A DNA stretch of 38,124 nucleotides from a virus: the IMG/VR virus record IMGVR_UViG_3300007734_000663, positions 1-38,124 of that record; one strand, 5' to 3'. How positions within the stretch are numbered: the first letter of the stretch is position 1; the number at the start of each line of letters is the position of its first letter. A program made the position numbers and the translations under genes. Under the pieces are notes generated by a model. That model saw only the letters and a list, made by a program, of their open reading frames with translations. It ran no database searches and was not told where the DNA came from. Shown here piece by piece: positions 1 to 38,124 of this stretch.

Positions 1-127
1 AAGCTTTAGGCATGGGTTACGAACCCCTAACCCCTAACTGTCACAGATAGCGGCTGATTGGAAGACAGATTCGGCATCCCCTCGGACGATTTATTTTACC
101 CTGCTTTCTTCCTCATATCAAATACGT
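1..127. repeat. Terminal direct repeat, left copy
   Basis: These 127 bases are identical to 37998-38124. An exact repeat of this length at both contig ends is what a circular or circularly permuted molecule gives when assembled with k-mer 127. It therefore marks a complete genome and is probably not a physical phage terminus. It lies inside the gene-free region, so the ends break no gene. Confidence 0.95.
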
Positions 128-200: not shown

Positions 201-662
201 ATGACTGCCCGAACCAAGCCTGATGCCGCCCCTCGTACGGCTACCGATAAGCGTGACTTCGGTCGCAAGTACGAGCTTCACGTCGGTGACCGATATGGGC
301 GACTCCTCGTTACCCAGACGCGCCCCAAGCTCGTCTTGCTCTGCGACTGCGGCAAGACCATCGACGACCGAACCCCTTCCCACATCGCCGTCAATCGCCT
401 CCGTTCCTGCGGCTGTGGCAAGTCTCCTCGCCCCGCTCGCTCCCCCGGCGACAAACACAACGAGTGGACTCTCGTGAAGCTCCTCGAAGACGGAGCCTCT
501 ACCTACCTGCGCCTCTGGTCCGTTGAGTGCTCCTGCGGCTACAAGGCCTCCAAGTACGAGTCCGACCTCAAGACCAATGCCGTCTCCTGTAACGCTTGCG
601 GCTATACTCGCCGAGCAGCTCGCACCCGCCAAAAGCATCTCGACTCCCAGGTGGCCAAGTGA
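201..662 (+). CDS. Tandem zinc-ribbon protein (153 aa)
   Basis: This small protein contains two similar modules. The first has GDRYGRLLV, then CDCGK and CGCG. The second has a related strand pattern, then CSCGY and CNACGY. The layout (G-x-R-x-G-R-L-x-V, Cys pair, Cys pair) is the zinc-ribbon module common in phage accessory proteins, often next to HNH homing nucleases, but no nuclease motif is present. Nucleic-acid binding is inferred. The ATG at 201 is chosen because GGAGG lies 10 bases upstream; an in-frame TTG at 162 lacks such a site. It is the first gene of the rightward block and overlaps the next gene by GTGA. Confidence 0.75.
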   Translation: MTARTKPDAAPRTATDKRDFGRKYELHVGDRYGRLLVTQTRPKLVLLCDCGKTIDDRTPSHIAVNRLRSCGCGKSPRPARSPGDKHNEWTLVKLLEDGASTYLRLWSVECSCGYKASKYESDLKTNAVSCNACGYTRRAARTRQKHLDSQVAK

Positions 663-1048
663 ACAAACTGGGTAAGCGCGCCGTGGCGTGCAAGAACTTC
701 TACTGGATGCAGGGCATGCTCTCAAGCAGTGGCCGTCGCGTTGGCGTCTGGATTCCAGGAACCGTCTGCGGTGCCTCAGAGGAGGAGCTTGTGTGGCCCG
801 ACCTCGACGACCCCGCCACGCTTGGGTGCCTGCTTCACTTGGTGCGCGAGGCGTGGCCGGACGAGTGGCACGAGTTCATGGTGCCGATATTCGACGGCTT
901 TAGCCACTGGTATGTGGGGTGCATGATGCCTGGCACGTCCAGGATCGTCATGCCCACCCGCGTCATGCAGAACGGGTTGCTTGACGCGCTTCCGCCGAAG
1001 CCGACCGAGGCCGAAGCCCTTGTGGCCGCACTGGAGGCTGCGCCATGA
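659..1048 (+). CDS. Conserved-type phage hypothetical protein (129 aa)
   Basis: The function is unknown. The protein contains YWMQGMLSSSGRRVGVW near its N-terminus and WPDLDDPATLGCLLHLVREAW in the middle; the DPATLGCLL pattern recurs in unassigned small proteins of proteobacterial phages and prophages. The GTG at 659 is chosen because it overlaps the preceding stop as GTGA and has a CAGGTGG site just upstream; a longer reading frame to 596 would overlap the previous gene by 67 bases. The stop overlaps the next start as ATGA, so it is translationally coupled on both sides. Confidence 0.75.
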   Translation: MNKLGKRAVACKNFYWMQGMLSSSGRRVGVWIPGTVCGASEEELVWPDLDDPATLGCLLHLVREAWPDEWHEFMVPIFDGFSHWYVGCMMPGTSRIVMPTRVMQNGLLDALPPKPTEAEALVAALEAAP

Positions 1049-1401
1049 GCAAAGTAGACATTGATGAACTCGTCCGCTGGCGAGACAAGTGCGAGGCGCT
1101 GGCTGCATCGCTGCAGCGGAAGGTCCGGCACTGCGACGAGATCACAGAGGAGCGCGACGAGGCGCGGGCGGAAGCGGACTACTTGCGCCGGGACGTGGAA
1201 TGTCTGCAGCTTGGACTAACCGTTAGCAACGAGGCATATCGCGCGGGATACAAAGCGGGGAACCTTGCTAGCGAGGCCTACCGCCGAGGCGCGGAGGCCA
1301 TGCGCGAGGCGTGTGCGCACGAGGCTTCCGTATGCGCCAATCACCGAGGCGAGAAGCTTGCCGACATCCTGAGCGCCCTGCCGATCCCGGAGGAGCCATG
1401 A
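1045..1401 (+). CDS. Small coiled-coil hypothetical protein (118 aa)
   Basis: The sequence is rich in Glu, Arg and Ala. Residues about 5-55 form a predicted amphipathic coiled coil (ERDEARAEADYLRRDVE), followed by repeated AYRAGYKAG / AYRRGAEAM helices. There is no catalytic motif and the function is unknown. It overlaps the upstream stop by ATGA and the downstream start by ATGA, so it sits inside a coupled string of small genes. The ERDEAR motif is shared with the next gene and may reflect an old duplication. Confidence 0.7.
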   Translation: MSKVDIDELVRWRDKCEALAASLQRKVRHCDEITEERDEARAEADYLRRDVECLQLGLTVSNEAYRAGYKAGNLASEAYRRGAEAMREACAHEASVCANHRGEKLADILSALPIPEEP

Positions 1402-2251: not shown

Positions 2252-2445
2252 AGGCTGGCTCGACGCTGGTGCCACTCAACAACGTCGTTGAGATGATCTC
2301 AATCAAGCTCGAGCCCGTTGCTGTGCCAGTAGTCTGTGTTGAGCCAAGCGATGACGCTCCCGAAGTGAGCGAGAAGGTATCCGTCACGGATGAAGAAGAC
2401 AAGCCAGCACGCCGTCGAGGCCGACCGCGCAAGATCCAAGTCTGA
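2107..2445 (+). CDS. Hypothetical protein with C-terminal AT-hook-like motif (112 aa)
   Basis: The sequence HMDLRYEEGFVKAGSTLVPLNNVVEM looks like a small beta-rich phage protein of a recurring unassigned type. The last residues, ARRRGRPRKIQV, contain the RGRPRK core of an AT-hook, which binds the minor groove of AT-rich DNA; DNA binding is inferred. The GTG at 2107 has AAGGGG five bases upstream. The later ATG at 2221 has no visible ribosome site but would remove the overlap with the preceding gene. The end overlaps the terminase start by 56 bases. Confidence 0.6.
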   Translation: MEENITKSFPIQRAVFLRGVDDPSEKSRITTTFYRPKHMDLRYEEGFVKAGSTLVPLNNVVEMISIKLEPVAVPVVCVEPSDDAPEVSEKVSVTDEEDKPARRRGRPRKIQV

Positions 2446-4030
2446 TGACGTCCTTGGAGTGTTTGAGGCCGCTGTCCGAGAGCAACTGGCAGCGAAGGAT
2501 CTCTCTCACTTTGAGGGTCTGCTCACCTCTTCTCTCGGGTTTGGCCTTACTACTGCCAGCCCCCTACAGCGAGCTATTGCTCGTGTCGCTGACGGGCGTC
2601 CTTTGGGCGACCTTGCAGATGACCCACGTGTCCTCCGTGCGTTCGGAGGAGTTATTCCAGATGCTGTTAAGCCCGCAGAACTTGCAATCGTCTCTGGTAT
2701 CCGTACGGCTAAGAGCTTATCAGCAGCAGCTCTTGCAGTACACTGGTCGCAGCGGGCGGATTTATCGAGACTAGGGCCTGGAGAGATCCCTCGTATCTCC
2801 ATTGTATCCCTGTCGAAGGACCTTGCAGACGTTGTCTACGGCCACATCGTTGGCAGGACGATGGCCTCTCCTATTCTGTCGAAGCTCATCCTGGAGACTC
2901 CGACAGCGGATACCCTGATGATTCGGCATCCGTCAGGCAGGCCCGTCGAGATCAAGGTAGTTGCATCGAGCAAGGCCGGATCGTCCCTCGTAGCCCGATG
3001 GTCGGCTGGCGTTATCATGGACGAGGTAGCGCGATGGGGTTCTGATGAGTCAGCCGTCTCCGTCAATGACCTACGTGATGCTGTTCTGCTTCGCATCCTA
3101 CCAGGAGCGCAGCTGGTCTACATCTCGAGCCCCTGGGCTCCGATGGGGTTCTTGTACGAGCTTGTCAAAGACAGGTGGGGAAAGCCAAGCCGAGACTGTA
3201 TCGTAGTCAAGGCACCAGCCTACGATATGGCTCCCATCATCTGGCCTGAAGAAAAGCTGGAGATTGCGAGGAGAGATCCGCGCATCTATCGCACCGACAT
3301 CGAAGCAGAGTTTGCTGACCCAGAAGAGGCCCTGTTCACGACAAACATGATCGAGACAGCTACGAGGGAAGCGCCTATCGCTTCCGCGCCCCAGCAAGGA
3401 GTGACATACACTGCTGCCATCGACCCGGCAACCAGAGGTAACAGCTTCACCCTCGTCGTTGCGACTGGCTCTGGGCGCAAGAAGAAAGTCATCTGCTTGG
3501 CGCGTCAATGGACAGGAAGTCCAGTAAATCCCTTGAGGCCAGCACTGGTTCTCGAGGAGATAGCACACATACTAAAAGCATATAGGGTAACTGTCCTAGA
3601 CAGCGACCAGTATATGGGCGACGCGCTACGTGATTTGGCAAACCAAGTCGGGCTCATCCTCGTTCCACACTCGTGGACGTCGACAGAGCGCACCAAACGC
3701 TACCTGACCTTGCGGACCATGTTCGAGATAGGCGATGTCGAGCTGCCGCCAGACCAGTTTGTAAGGCAGGACTTGCAGCGAGTCGTTCGCCGGTACTCTC
3801 AGTCCGGGATAACGATTGACCTGATGAAGTCAGGCGATGGTCGCCACGCCGACTATGCCCCAGCTATCTGCATGGCTCTCACTCGATGGCACGAGCTGGA
3901 AGACAACCGACAGCAGAGTGAATTCGAGAGCGGATACCAGGGACTTGATGAAGAAGAGAAAAAGATATGGGGTAGAATAGAGAATAATATAAGAGCAAAA
4001 AACAAGAAGTCGTCAAGGGTGCGACGATGA
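2390..4030 (+). CDS. terL: Terminase large subunit
   Basis: This is the ATP-driven DNA-packaging motor and headful or end-cutting nuclease, acting at the procapsid portal. The N-terminal ATPase has a degenerate Walker A (SGIRTAKS, about residues 102-109) and Walker B GVIMDE (207-212). The C-terminal RNase H-like nuclease has AAIDPA (Asp about 345), VLDSDQ (404-406) and an Asp-rich GDGRHADYAP segment near the end. The length (546 aa) fits the family. It sits directly upstream of the portal gene, as usual. The ATG at 2390 lies 56 bases inside the previous gene, with GAGAAGG about 12 bases upstream; a GTG at 2459 is an alternative. No small terminase is adjacent; a candidate lies in the opposite operon. 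Confidence 0.92.
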   Translation: MKKTSQHAVEADRARSKSDDVLGVFEAAVREQLAAKDLSHFEGLLTSSLGFGLTTASPLQRAIARVADGRPLGDLADDPRVLRAFGGVIPDAVKPAELAIVSGIRTAKSLSAAALAVHWSQRADLSRLGPGEIPRISIVSLSKDLADVVYGHIVGRTMASPILSKLILETPTADTLMIRHPSGRPVEIKVVASSKAGSSLVARWSAGVIMDEVARWGSDESAVSVNDLRDAVLLRILPGAQLVYISSPWAPMGFLYELVKDRWGKPSRDCIVVKAPAYDMAPIIWPEEKLEIARRDPRIYRTDIEAEFADPEEALFTTNMIETATREAPIASAPQQGVTYTAAIDPATRGNSFTLVVATGSGRKKKVICLARQWTGSPVNPLRPALVLEEIAHILKAYRVTVLDSDQYMGDALRDLANQVGLILVPHSWTSTERTKRYLTLRTMFEIGDVELPPDQFVRQDLQRVVRRYSQSGITIDLMKSGDGRHADYAPAICMALTRWHELEDNRQQSEFESGYQGLDEEEKKIWGRIENNIRAKNKKSSRVRR

Positions 4031-36492: not shown

Positions 36493-36593
36493 TTGCACGC
36501 CCCGTAGGGCGGAAGGTGACGTCCGGTGATTGCCTCACCGGCACAGTTGAGGAGCACTCCCGCGATTAGGACCACAGCGATTAGCCTAATCAC
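36489..36593 (-). CDS. Micro-gene, possible signal-anchored peptide (34 aa)
   Basis: GTG 36593 overlaps the stop of the Lys/Pro/Ala protein as GTGA. The product starts MIRLIAVVLIAGVLLNC, a membrane helix ending in Cys like a lipoprotein signal (with Asn before the Cys, which is atypical), followed by a short polar tail. It could be a membrane-anchored early peptide. Confidence 0.45.
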   Translation of the reverse strand: MIRLIAVVLIAGVLLNCAGEAITGRHLPPYGACK

Positions 36594-36841
36594 GTCCAAT
36601 AGTCCTCTGCGGTGCGTCGCCCCTTGGGTGCAGCGAACACGTCGACTGGCTTGCGTGGCTTGGCTGGCTTGGCTGGCTTGGCTGGCTTAGCGGCTGGCTT
36701 AGCGGCTGGCTTAGCGGCTGGCTTAGCGGCTGGCTTTGCGCTTTCACCAGTTGCCCGGTGAATGATGCGCGTGGCCTGCACCGCGTGCGTTCGTTCTGGC
36801 TTCGCGTTGGAATACAACGCGCATAGATCCATACGGCTCAT
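36590..36841 (-). CDS. Lys/Pro/Ala-repeat basic protein (83 aa)
   Basis: This is the first gene of the leftward operon, with AGGAAAGG before its ATG. After a short N-terminal helix, residues about 36-60 are (AKPA)n/(AKP)n repeats like the C-terminal tails of histone H1 or bacterial HU-type proteins, ending in a basic GRRTAEDYWT. Binding of DNA or acidic host factors is inferred. The repeat is encoded by tandem DNA units and could vary in number between relatives. Confidence 0.65.
   Translation of the reverse strand: MSRMDLCALYSNAKPERTHAVQATRIIHRATGESAKPAAKPAAKPAAKPAAKPAKPAKPAKPRKPVDVFAAPKGRRTAEDYWT
36658..36737. repeat. Tandem 9-bp and 12-bp repeats in the basic protein gene
   Basis: Three units of TGGCTGGCT are followed by four units of TAGCGGCTGGCT on the plus strand. 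They encode the Lys/Pro/Ala repeats. All units are multiples of three, so slippage changes repeat number without breaking the frame. Confidence 0.8.
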
Positions 36842-36887
36842 GTGTGAGCACCTTTCCTAACGCGTCACGATTGACGCAGAGCACGCG

Positions 36888-36905
36888 CAAGGCTTCGAAG
36901 CCTTG
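36888..36905. promoter_or_regulatory. 18-bp perfect palindrome
   Basis: CAAGGCTTCGAAGCCTTG is a perfect palindrome 47 bases before the start of the leftward operon. Competing pairs exist: GCACGCG (36881-36887) with CGCGTGC (36936-36942). It could be an operator or part of a structured RNA. Confidence 0.45.
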
Positions 36906-36970
36906 ACGGCACAAGCGGTGCTACCCCTTGCGTCACGCGTGCTAGCATGCGCATCGTCGGTTGACGTTGC

Positions 36971-36986
36971 GCGTTAACGTTAACGC
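36971..36986. promoter_or_regulatory. 16-bp perfect palindrome of GTTAACG units
   Basis: GCGTTAACGTTAACGC is fully palindromic. GTTAAC recurs at 37442-37447, 37456-37461 and 37725-37730, all within the gene-free region. Repetition of one hexamer here is compatible with a regulator or initiator binding site as well as with RNA stems. Confidence 0.45.
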
Positions 36987-37441
36987 TTCTCGTTCTGCAC
37001 CTTCTCAGGGTGTACACTTCTTCCCAATGTGGGAGCGTGCTACCGTTGAAGATAGCAACGAACGCTACGTATCGGTTCCCACTTAGGCCGTCACCCTGGG
37101 GACGGAAGGCCTAGCTATAGGATCGCTTGTAAGGCGATCCAGCGCGAAACATGCACCAGCCTACTAGCGTCGCATCGAAGCTCGCTTGGCGCGGCCCGTT
37201 AGGGTCGCTGATTAGGTTGCGGTGTTAGTGCATGGTCACGCGATAATGCACGTGGGAACGTCCGGAGACGTTGAAACGAGAAACTGATTGTCAGAGAGCA
37301 GGCGGTGTTCCGTTTAGAGGCTTTCGCCGAACCCGATGTGTAGACACTACCCTAATTCGGGCCCTTGTCACGTATTATTGCCACGCGTTACGTCGTTTCT
37401 TTTCCCATCACTCGACAGTGTAACGATTCCAGTGACATAGC

Positions 37442-37461
37442 GTTAACGTGTAGACGTTAAC
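37442..37461 (+). other. Perfect 8-bp hairpin with GTAG loop
   Basis: GTTAACGT pairs with ACGTTAAC across a four-base loop. It directly follows a 72-base extended hairpin (TGTCAC 37366-37371 with GTGACA 37432-37437, enclosing CGTTAC/GTAACG and GTCG/CGAC) and precedes an 11-pair hairpin at 37469-37503. Confidence 0.6.
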
Positions 37462-37773
37462 TAATATCAGGCGTTGACAGAATAGCGACGCTGTGAACGT
37501 CCTGCAGGGTTCCCCGTTGCGTTCCCACTTGGTGGGCACGGCGTAACGGTATGGAAAGTGTATGTGCCCGGTATGGGGTGGATAATACTATGAATCGAAA
37601 CTCAGTGCAACTACTTTTAATTAACGTATTACGTACACACTACAGCATGTGTTGTACGTATCTTTACGGTCGCACCACTGCAATTACCCTAGCGGATTCG
37701 TTTACATCGATTGCGTATACAGTAGTTAACGTATACGTATGTGCTTCGTATACCCCCCGTCTGCACTTCGTAT

Positions 37774-37829
37774 TACGGTAACCCGTAGGGTACCCATCTC
37801 CAAAATTTTCCCTACTGCACGTTACCGTA
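37774..37829 (+). other. Nested 9-bp plus 6-bp hairpin
   Basis: TACGGTAAC (37774-37782) pairs perfectly with GTTACCGTA (37821-37829), and inside it GTAGGG (37785-37790) pairs with CCCTAC (37810-37815). Two perfect stacked helices of this size around a 19-base loop are unlikely by chance. Confidence 0.6.
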
Positions 37830-37997
37830 TTACCGCTACGTTCGCGCATCCACCTATCCAGCGGAGTAGGCCAGCGCGAGTGGGAGCGAGCGTATCTACG
37901 GAGCGTTGTTCACGCGTCTACGTTAGTCGTCGCCAATCCCTAGCTCGTCTATCGCTCGCTTCGGGACCGCTTGCCTGCTCCTCGTTGTTACGCAGGA

Positions 37998-38124
37998 AAG
38001 CTTTAGGCATGGGTTACGAACCCCTAACCCCTAACTGTCACAGATAGCGGCTGATTGGAAGACAGATTCGGCATCCCCTCGGACGATTTATTTTACCCTG
38101 CTTTCTTCCTCATATCAAATACGT
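37998..38124. repeat. Terminal direct repeat, right copy
   Basis: Exact copy of positions 1-127; see the left copy. It should be counted once when the genome is closed to 37,997 bp. Confidence 0.95.

Follow-up and report, generated by a model that had tools for sequence, protein, structure and literature searches.

Constrained base pairing and two family-wide sequence elements in a divergent control region of a phage genome

GOLLD and ROOL RNAs are each produced as one long, abundant transcript and form homo-oligomers. In phages they are often encoded near tRNA islands (PMC12286853). Operons of phages and bacteria can carry structured leader RNAs at their 5′ ends, among them riboswitch-like and attenuator-like elements, and the cos site of phage lambda is a DNA signal arranged as the subsites cosQ-cosN-I2-cosB (PMC4669245). 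The locus described here shares with GOLLD and ROOL a phage-borne, gene-free region with many helices. It differs from them in lacking a covariance-model match and a tRNA neighborhood, in having domains of about 85-105 nt, and in that two of these domains, D1 and D3, apparently lie on opposite strands. Its likeness to structured leaders consists in a compact domain that closely precedes a ribosome-binding site and in maintained helices with compensatory changes and possible alternative pairings, although D1 and D3 match no Rfam family and are known in two or three phages only.

We analyzed the whole record IMGVR_UViG_3300007734_000663 (the window, 38,124 nt), whose 127-base terminal overlap reduces it to a circular genome of 37,997 bp. 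The 1.36-kb region of interest is bordered by the first leftward gene (36841) and the first rightward gene (201; Table 1). An earlier note had described this stretch as free of genes, and we agree: its sole open reading frames span 76, 61, and 102 aa, and because the aligned relative L002 has indels there, no conserved gene is visible. The stretch is a control region common to two opposite gene blocks. The rightward block, from about position 201, contains structural genes (terminase, portal, capsid, tail), and the leftward block contains replication and recombination genes (helicase loader, exonucleases, RusA-like resolvase) together with a GP88-family gene. The first leftward gene encodes a small protein with Ala-Lys-Pro repeats (AKPAAKPAAKP) that has homologues in L002 and L045 only. 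The predicted structure of the terminase is of low confidence (pLDDT 45).

Table 1. Coordinates of features in and around the control region
Feature	Position	Strand	Basis or description
First leftward gene, 83 aa, Ala-Lys-Pro repeats	36590..36841	-	Open reading frame with AGGAAAGG ahead of ATG; directly downstream of D1
Divergent intergenic control region	36842..38124, then over the circle junction as far as 200 (38124 is circle position 127)		No plausible gene; opposite gene blocks flank it
D1, three-way junction: clamp AGCACGCG/CGCGTGCT and two hairpins, then hairpin GCGTC/GACGC by the ribosome-binding site	36860..36943	-	Common to this phage, L002, and L045
D3, multibranched: two stacked helices, two hairpins, 3′ hairpin	37153..37251	+	Pairs kept between this phage and L002; G-U-compatible changes; alifold
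GTGCAT, possible switch	37228..37233	+	Complementary to 37151-37156 or 37246-37251
Perfect hairpin GTTAACGT-GTAG-ACGTTAAC	37442..37461		Stem identical in L002; loop GTAG to GCAT
D4, further maintained hairpins	37466..37570	+ favored	Alifold and compensatory pairs
Element A: ACCCC.GTCTGCACTT, G-run/C-run dyad (here GGGTACCC), CAAAATTTTCC, then CGTT	37752..37822	+	Family profile
Block from A to end of B	37868..38124	+	Alignment: L002 nearly identical, with few differences over ~255 bp of noncoding DNA (37868-38124 and 1-130)
Element B: CCCCTAACCCCTAAC..CACAGATAGCGG..TTGGAAGACAGATTCGGCAT	23..77 (= 38020-38074)	+	Family profile
First rightward gene, Cys-rich	201..662	+	phrog_374, E 1.6e-6; weakly resembles zinc part of HNH endonucleases
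Terminase large subunit	2390..4030	+	phrog_5909, E 2.3e-5; used to gather relatives, 79-97% identical

Searches of phage and plasmid databases returned no match, no iterons were found, and the genome contains no tRNA. No convincing promoter was detected in the region; the one promoter-like site compares with 0.9 expected by chance. This sigma-70-like site (TTGATA-17-TAAAAT, 38090-38118, minus strand) is aimed leftward into the region and is identical in L002.

A terminase search collected 51 loci. L002 is the sole close relative and the only locus that aligns over the whole region (84% identity, 1334 aligned columns). L045 shares pieces near 36702-36981, 37342-37442, 37705-37840, and 38008-38091, and the remaining loci have only elements A and B in common with this phage. 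The structured part is thus restricted to this phage, L002, and, for D1 only, L045. The block that runs to the end of B is more conserved against L002 than are the coding genes (83-90% identity), which may reflect either constraint or recent recombination. Family contigs often start 0.6-2.4 kb 5′ of the terminase gene, among variable and partly repeated small genes. Two open reading frames in the window (1045-1401 and 1311-1877) have multiple matches in L034.

We next compared base pairing between this phage and L002 by predicting stems from one sequence alone and following them in the other. In the null model, substitutions were shuffled among same-base paired columns in 60-column blocks, after an unblocked version had been run. 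The noncoding region contains 8-13 compensatory pairs versus 3.6-3.9 expected (or about 2-4) and 37-46 broken pairs versus 49-60 expected. The corresponding z scores are 2.5 to 5.2 for compensatory and -3.2 to -4.8 for broken pairs, and only this noncoding stretch shows such a departure. In the same two phages, the terminase, portal, GP88, and first-gene controls were flat, without compensatory excess, as were intergenic regions of six other phage groups. Because the noncoding region exceeds the null while the coding and six-group controls do not, this comparison indicates that pairing is under constraint in the lineage of this phage and L002. The covariation that the earlier note had proposed looking for is present above the null and absent from the controls, for a comparison of few sequences.

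Bulk folding gave a different picture. Averaged over 150-nt windows, z is -1.14 for the plus strand and -1.35 for the minus strand, which ranks the region only 62nd and 43rd, respectively, of 253 same-size stretches of its own genome; the unusual overall structure that had been suspected was not borne out against shuffled sequence. Perfect Watson-Crick stems of at least 7 pairs with loops of 3-16 number 6 in the region, compared with 0.9 ± 1.1 in dinucleotide shuffles and 3-4 in coding stretches of the same size. The many nested stems listed in the earlier note fared unevenly. Paired elements are present, and the three concentric helices at 37150-37234, a well-chosen example that corresponds to D3, are fully maintained in L002 with covariation. 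The 8-bp stem at 37442-37461 is also kept, with changes in the loop only. At 37774-37829, the inner six pairs are retained in L002 and one outer pair is broken. The helices at 37366-37437 are not maintained: the bin 37342-37441 contains 12 broken and 11 unchanged pairs, and 37256-37441 is a poorly maintained part of the region. Reading stems by eye in a single genome can therefore give locally right results despite ordinary bulk folding energy.

D1 was aligned by hand and checked against the sequences of this phage, L002, and L045. In all three, an invariant 8-bp clamp closes two hairpins, and the next hairpin stops where the first leftward gene has its ribosome-binding site; in this phage and L045, the domain abuts both the ribosome-binding site and the start codon. 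Compensatory changes occur in three helices, with the clamp unchanged. GCGTC/GACGC becomes GCGCC/GGCGC, two pairs of the second hairpin covary, and the third hairpin is replaced, while in L002 the second hairpin has lost one closing pair. The sole G-U clue points to the minus strand, where L002 has A-U and L045 has G-C in place of a G-U pair.

D3 lies about 0.95 kb ahead of the first rightward gene. Its consensus pairs form in both this phage and L002 in 32 of 32 cases, a figure that leans toward this structure because the structure is the consensus of the two sequences compared; shifted structures pair in only 27-38% of cells. Both sides have changed in 5 compensatory pairs, four of which are recovered by the single-sequence test, and all one-sided changes (4/4) are G-U-compatible on the plus strand. 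With two sequences the shuffle control is modest, as 23 out of 500 shuffles do as well as the real alignment. Alifold energies are -39.0 on the plus strand and -33.5 on the minus strand, and a D3 covariance model matched only this phage and L002 among the fetched relatives. Both of the alternative partners proposed for GTGCAT are present as ATGCAC strands, and L002 shows no change in any of the three strands. D4 has alifold energies of -20.9 (plus) and -12.5 (minus), a z of about -2.8 in both phages, and compensatory pairs at 37468/37504, 37480/37491, and 37523/37540. Event numbers are small for these domains (D3 in two phages, D1 in three), and the strand assignments rest on few sites.

Our best reading, which we place at an even balance of belief and doubt, is a divergent control region with folded regulatory leader RNAs on each side. 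On the basis of these comparisons, the region contains at least two compact folded elements, D1 and D3, whose pairing evolution has maintained and which are probably RNA; we infer their transcription, the strand of each, and a regulatory role. On the minus strand, D1 would fold within the untranslated 5′ leader that precedes the coding part of the first leftward gene, ending at its ribosome-binding site. On the plus strand, D3, and probably D4, would fold as part of a leader or small RNA that precedes the structural genes of the rightward block. The most likely action would be cis-regulation, with termination or ribosome access set by the fold. Two alternative pairings would be available within D3, where 37151-37156, 37228-37233, and 37246-37251 are mutually complementary. 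That D3 represents a new riboswitch-like class of phage RNA, toggling these pairings to turn on the rightward genes and facing an unrelated minus-strand leader in D1, is a speculative extension that we consider doubtful. Elements A and B, further right, would form a separate protein-recognition site ahead of the rightward operon.

These repeats could instead act as DNA, in the form of cruciforms, operator arrays, or a replication origin, with compensation arising by template switching from arm to arm. The whole-region signal is equal on both strands, neither of which is favored by G-U use or energy, so that the plus-strand G-U bias reported from the first inspection is absent over the whole region; this equality also fits DNA inverted repeats or template-switch mutation. 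Among shared Watson-Crick pairs, moreover, the compensated double changes are nearly all Watson-Crick. Against a DNA role stand the one-sided changes in D3, all G-U-compatible on one strand, the lack of iterons, and the multibranched form of D1 and D3, which is more typical of RNA than of operator palindromes. We regard the DNA alternative as unlikely. A single ornate RNA of the GOLLD or ROOL type spanning the region, as the earlier note had suggested, would suit a gene-free, phage-borne stretch of about 1.3 kb with many stems. Rfam searches of the window and of relatives, with the GOLLD and ROOL models included, gave no match at the gathering threshold and only unrelated chance matches at a permissive one (E up to 10). 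The folding energy is ordinary, the genome lacks tRNAs, the domains measure about 85-105 nt, and 37256-37441 is poorly maintained. The G-U clues indicate opposite strands for D1 (minus) and D3 (plus), and what is conserved family-wide is a pair of primary-sequence elements and not a fold. We therefore consider one giant RNA very improbable.

We built family profiles for these two elements. Among the family contigs that span the site, profile A matches about 20 distinct ones; two others, truncated there by contig ends, give partial matches. Profile B matches about 25 distinct contigs of the family (E 1e-8 to 1e-31). The order is always A then B, in the same direction, that of terminase transcription, with a spacing of 186-308 bp. 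B itself is unstructured (mean z +0.4) and the plus strand shows no added structure across the A-B interval, so A and B are best regarded as sequence signals. A 17-mer from B gave only chance matches in bacterial genomes, and further matches to the A motif fall in a seemingly unrelated protein-coding gene conserved between viruses. A was rejected as a sigma-70 promoter, its spacing being inconsistent.

Two further features were observed near these elements in relatives. The sequence CGTTTCACGTGAAACA, which matches 15/16 bases of bacterial parS (bound by ParB), adjoins A in four of them (L017:3967-3982, L047:3951-3966, L024:2803-2818, and L030:3151-3166), 5′ in two and 3′ in two, against a chance expectation of well under once. 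This site is absent from the window; in the four relatives, it could serve to recruit host ParB. A hairpin with the conserved loop TGTTGG(A/G)AT lies just upstream of B in L017, L047, L021, L011-L013, L016, and L015, on three different fully complementary stems (CGGGC/GCCCG, GCACTTG/CAAGTGC, and TCGTGG/CCACGA). Elsewhere the loop sits on stems of at most 3 pairs. The hairpin looks real in this one subgroup and has no clear counterpart in the window.

A and B resemble a packaging or late-operon control site. As a cos or pac site, the terminase would cut the G/C dyad of A and its small subunit would bind the flanking block and B, with the upstream hairpins secondary. The arrangement of the two elements fits this: A always precedes B, by 186-308 bp, on the side where terminase lies and in the direction of its transcription. 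A is laid out like lambda cos: a block, a GC-rich dyad, AAAATTTTCC, and then GCGTT, 8 bp on in several relatives, with a downstream recognition block followed by terminase genes in the same direction. A 28-nt A profile places lambda cos first of 96,950 lambda positions, lambda having been picked after the resemblance was noticed. The same profile misses the ends of N15, HK97, P2, and phage D3, none of which matches A, and scores higher at an unrelated N15 site. Five of 24 contigs carrying A and/or B start inside A or between the two; these clustered ends are ambiguous as physical genome ends, lying at or beside G-runs, where assembly fails anyway. Compared with lambda, cutting here is putative, the second element is 186-308 bp away, and several accessory genes lie between B and terminase; a small terminase subunit was not identified in the genome. 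We hold the packaging assignment tentatively, as a real possibility that falls short of even, and it can be combined with leader RNAs at D1 and D3. If A and B served the late operon on the right as promoter or antitermination elements, they would likewise be expected always upstream of the rightward genes and in their direction, as they are, and A of L045 contains TTGACC-16-TATCCT. The -35/-10 pair is not consistent across the family, however, B is unstructured, and the spacing varies, which leaves this role somewhat unlikely.

These results provide, in a phage group without a characterized member, two covariation-supported RNA candidates, D1 and D3, that are testable and have no Rfam relatives. 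They also define A and B as two short DNA elements common to the group that can be tested as a packaging or late-control site.
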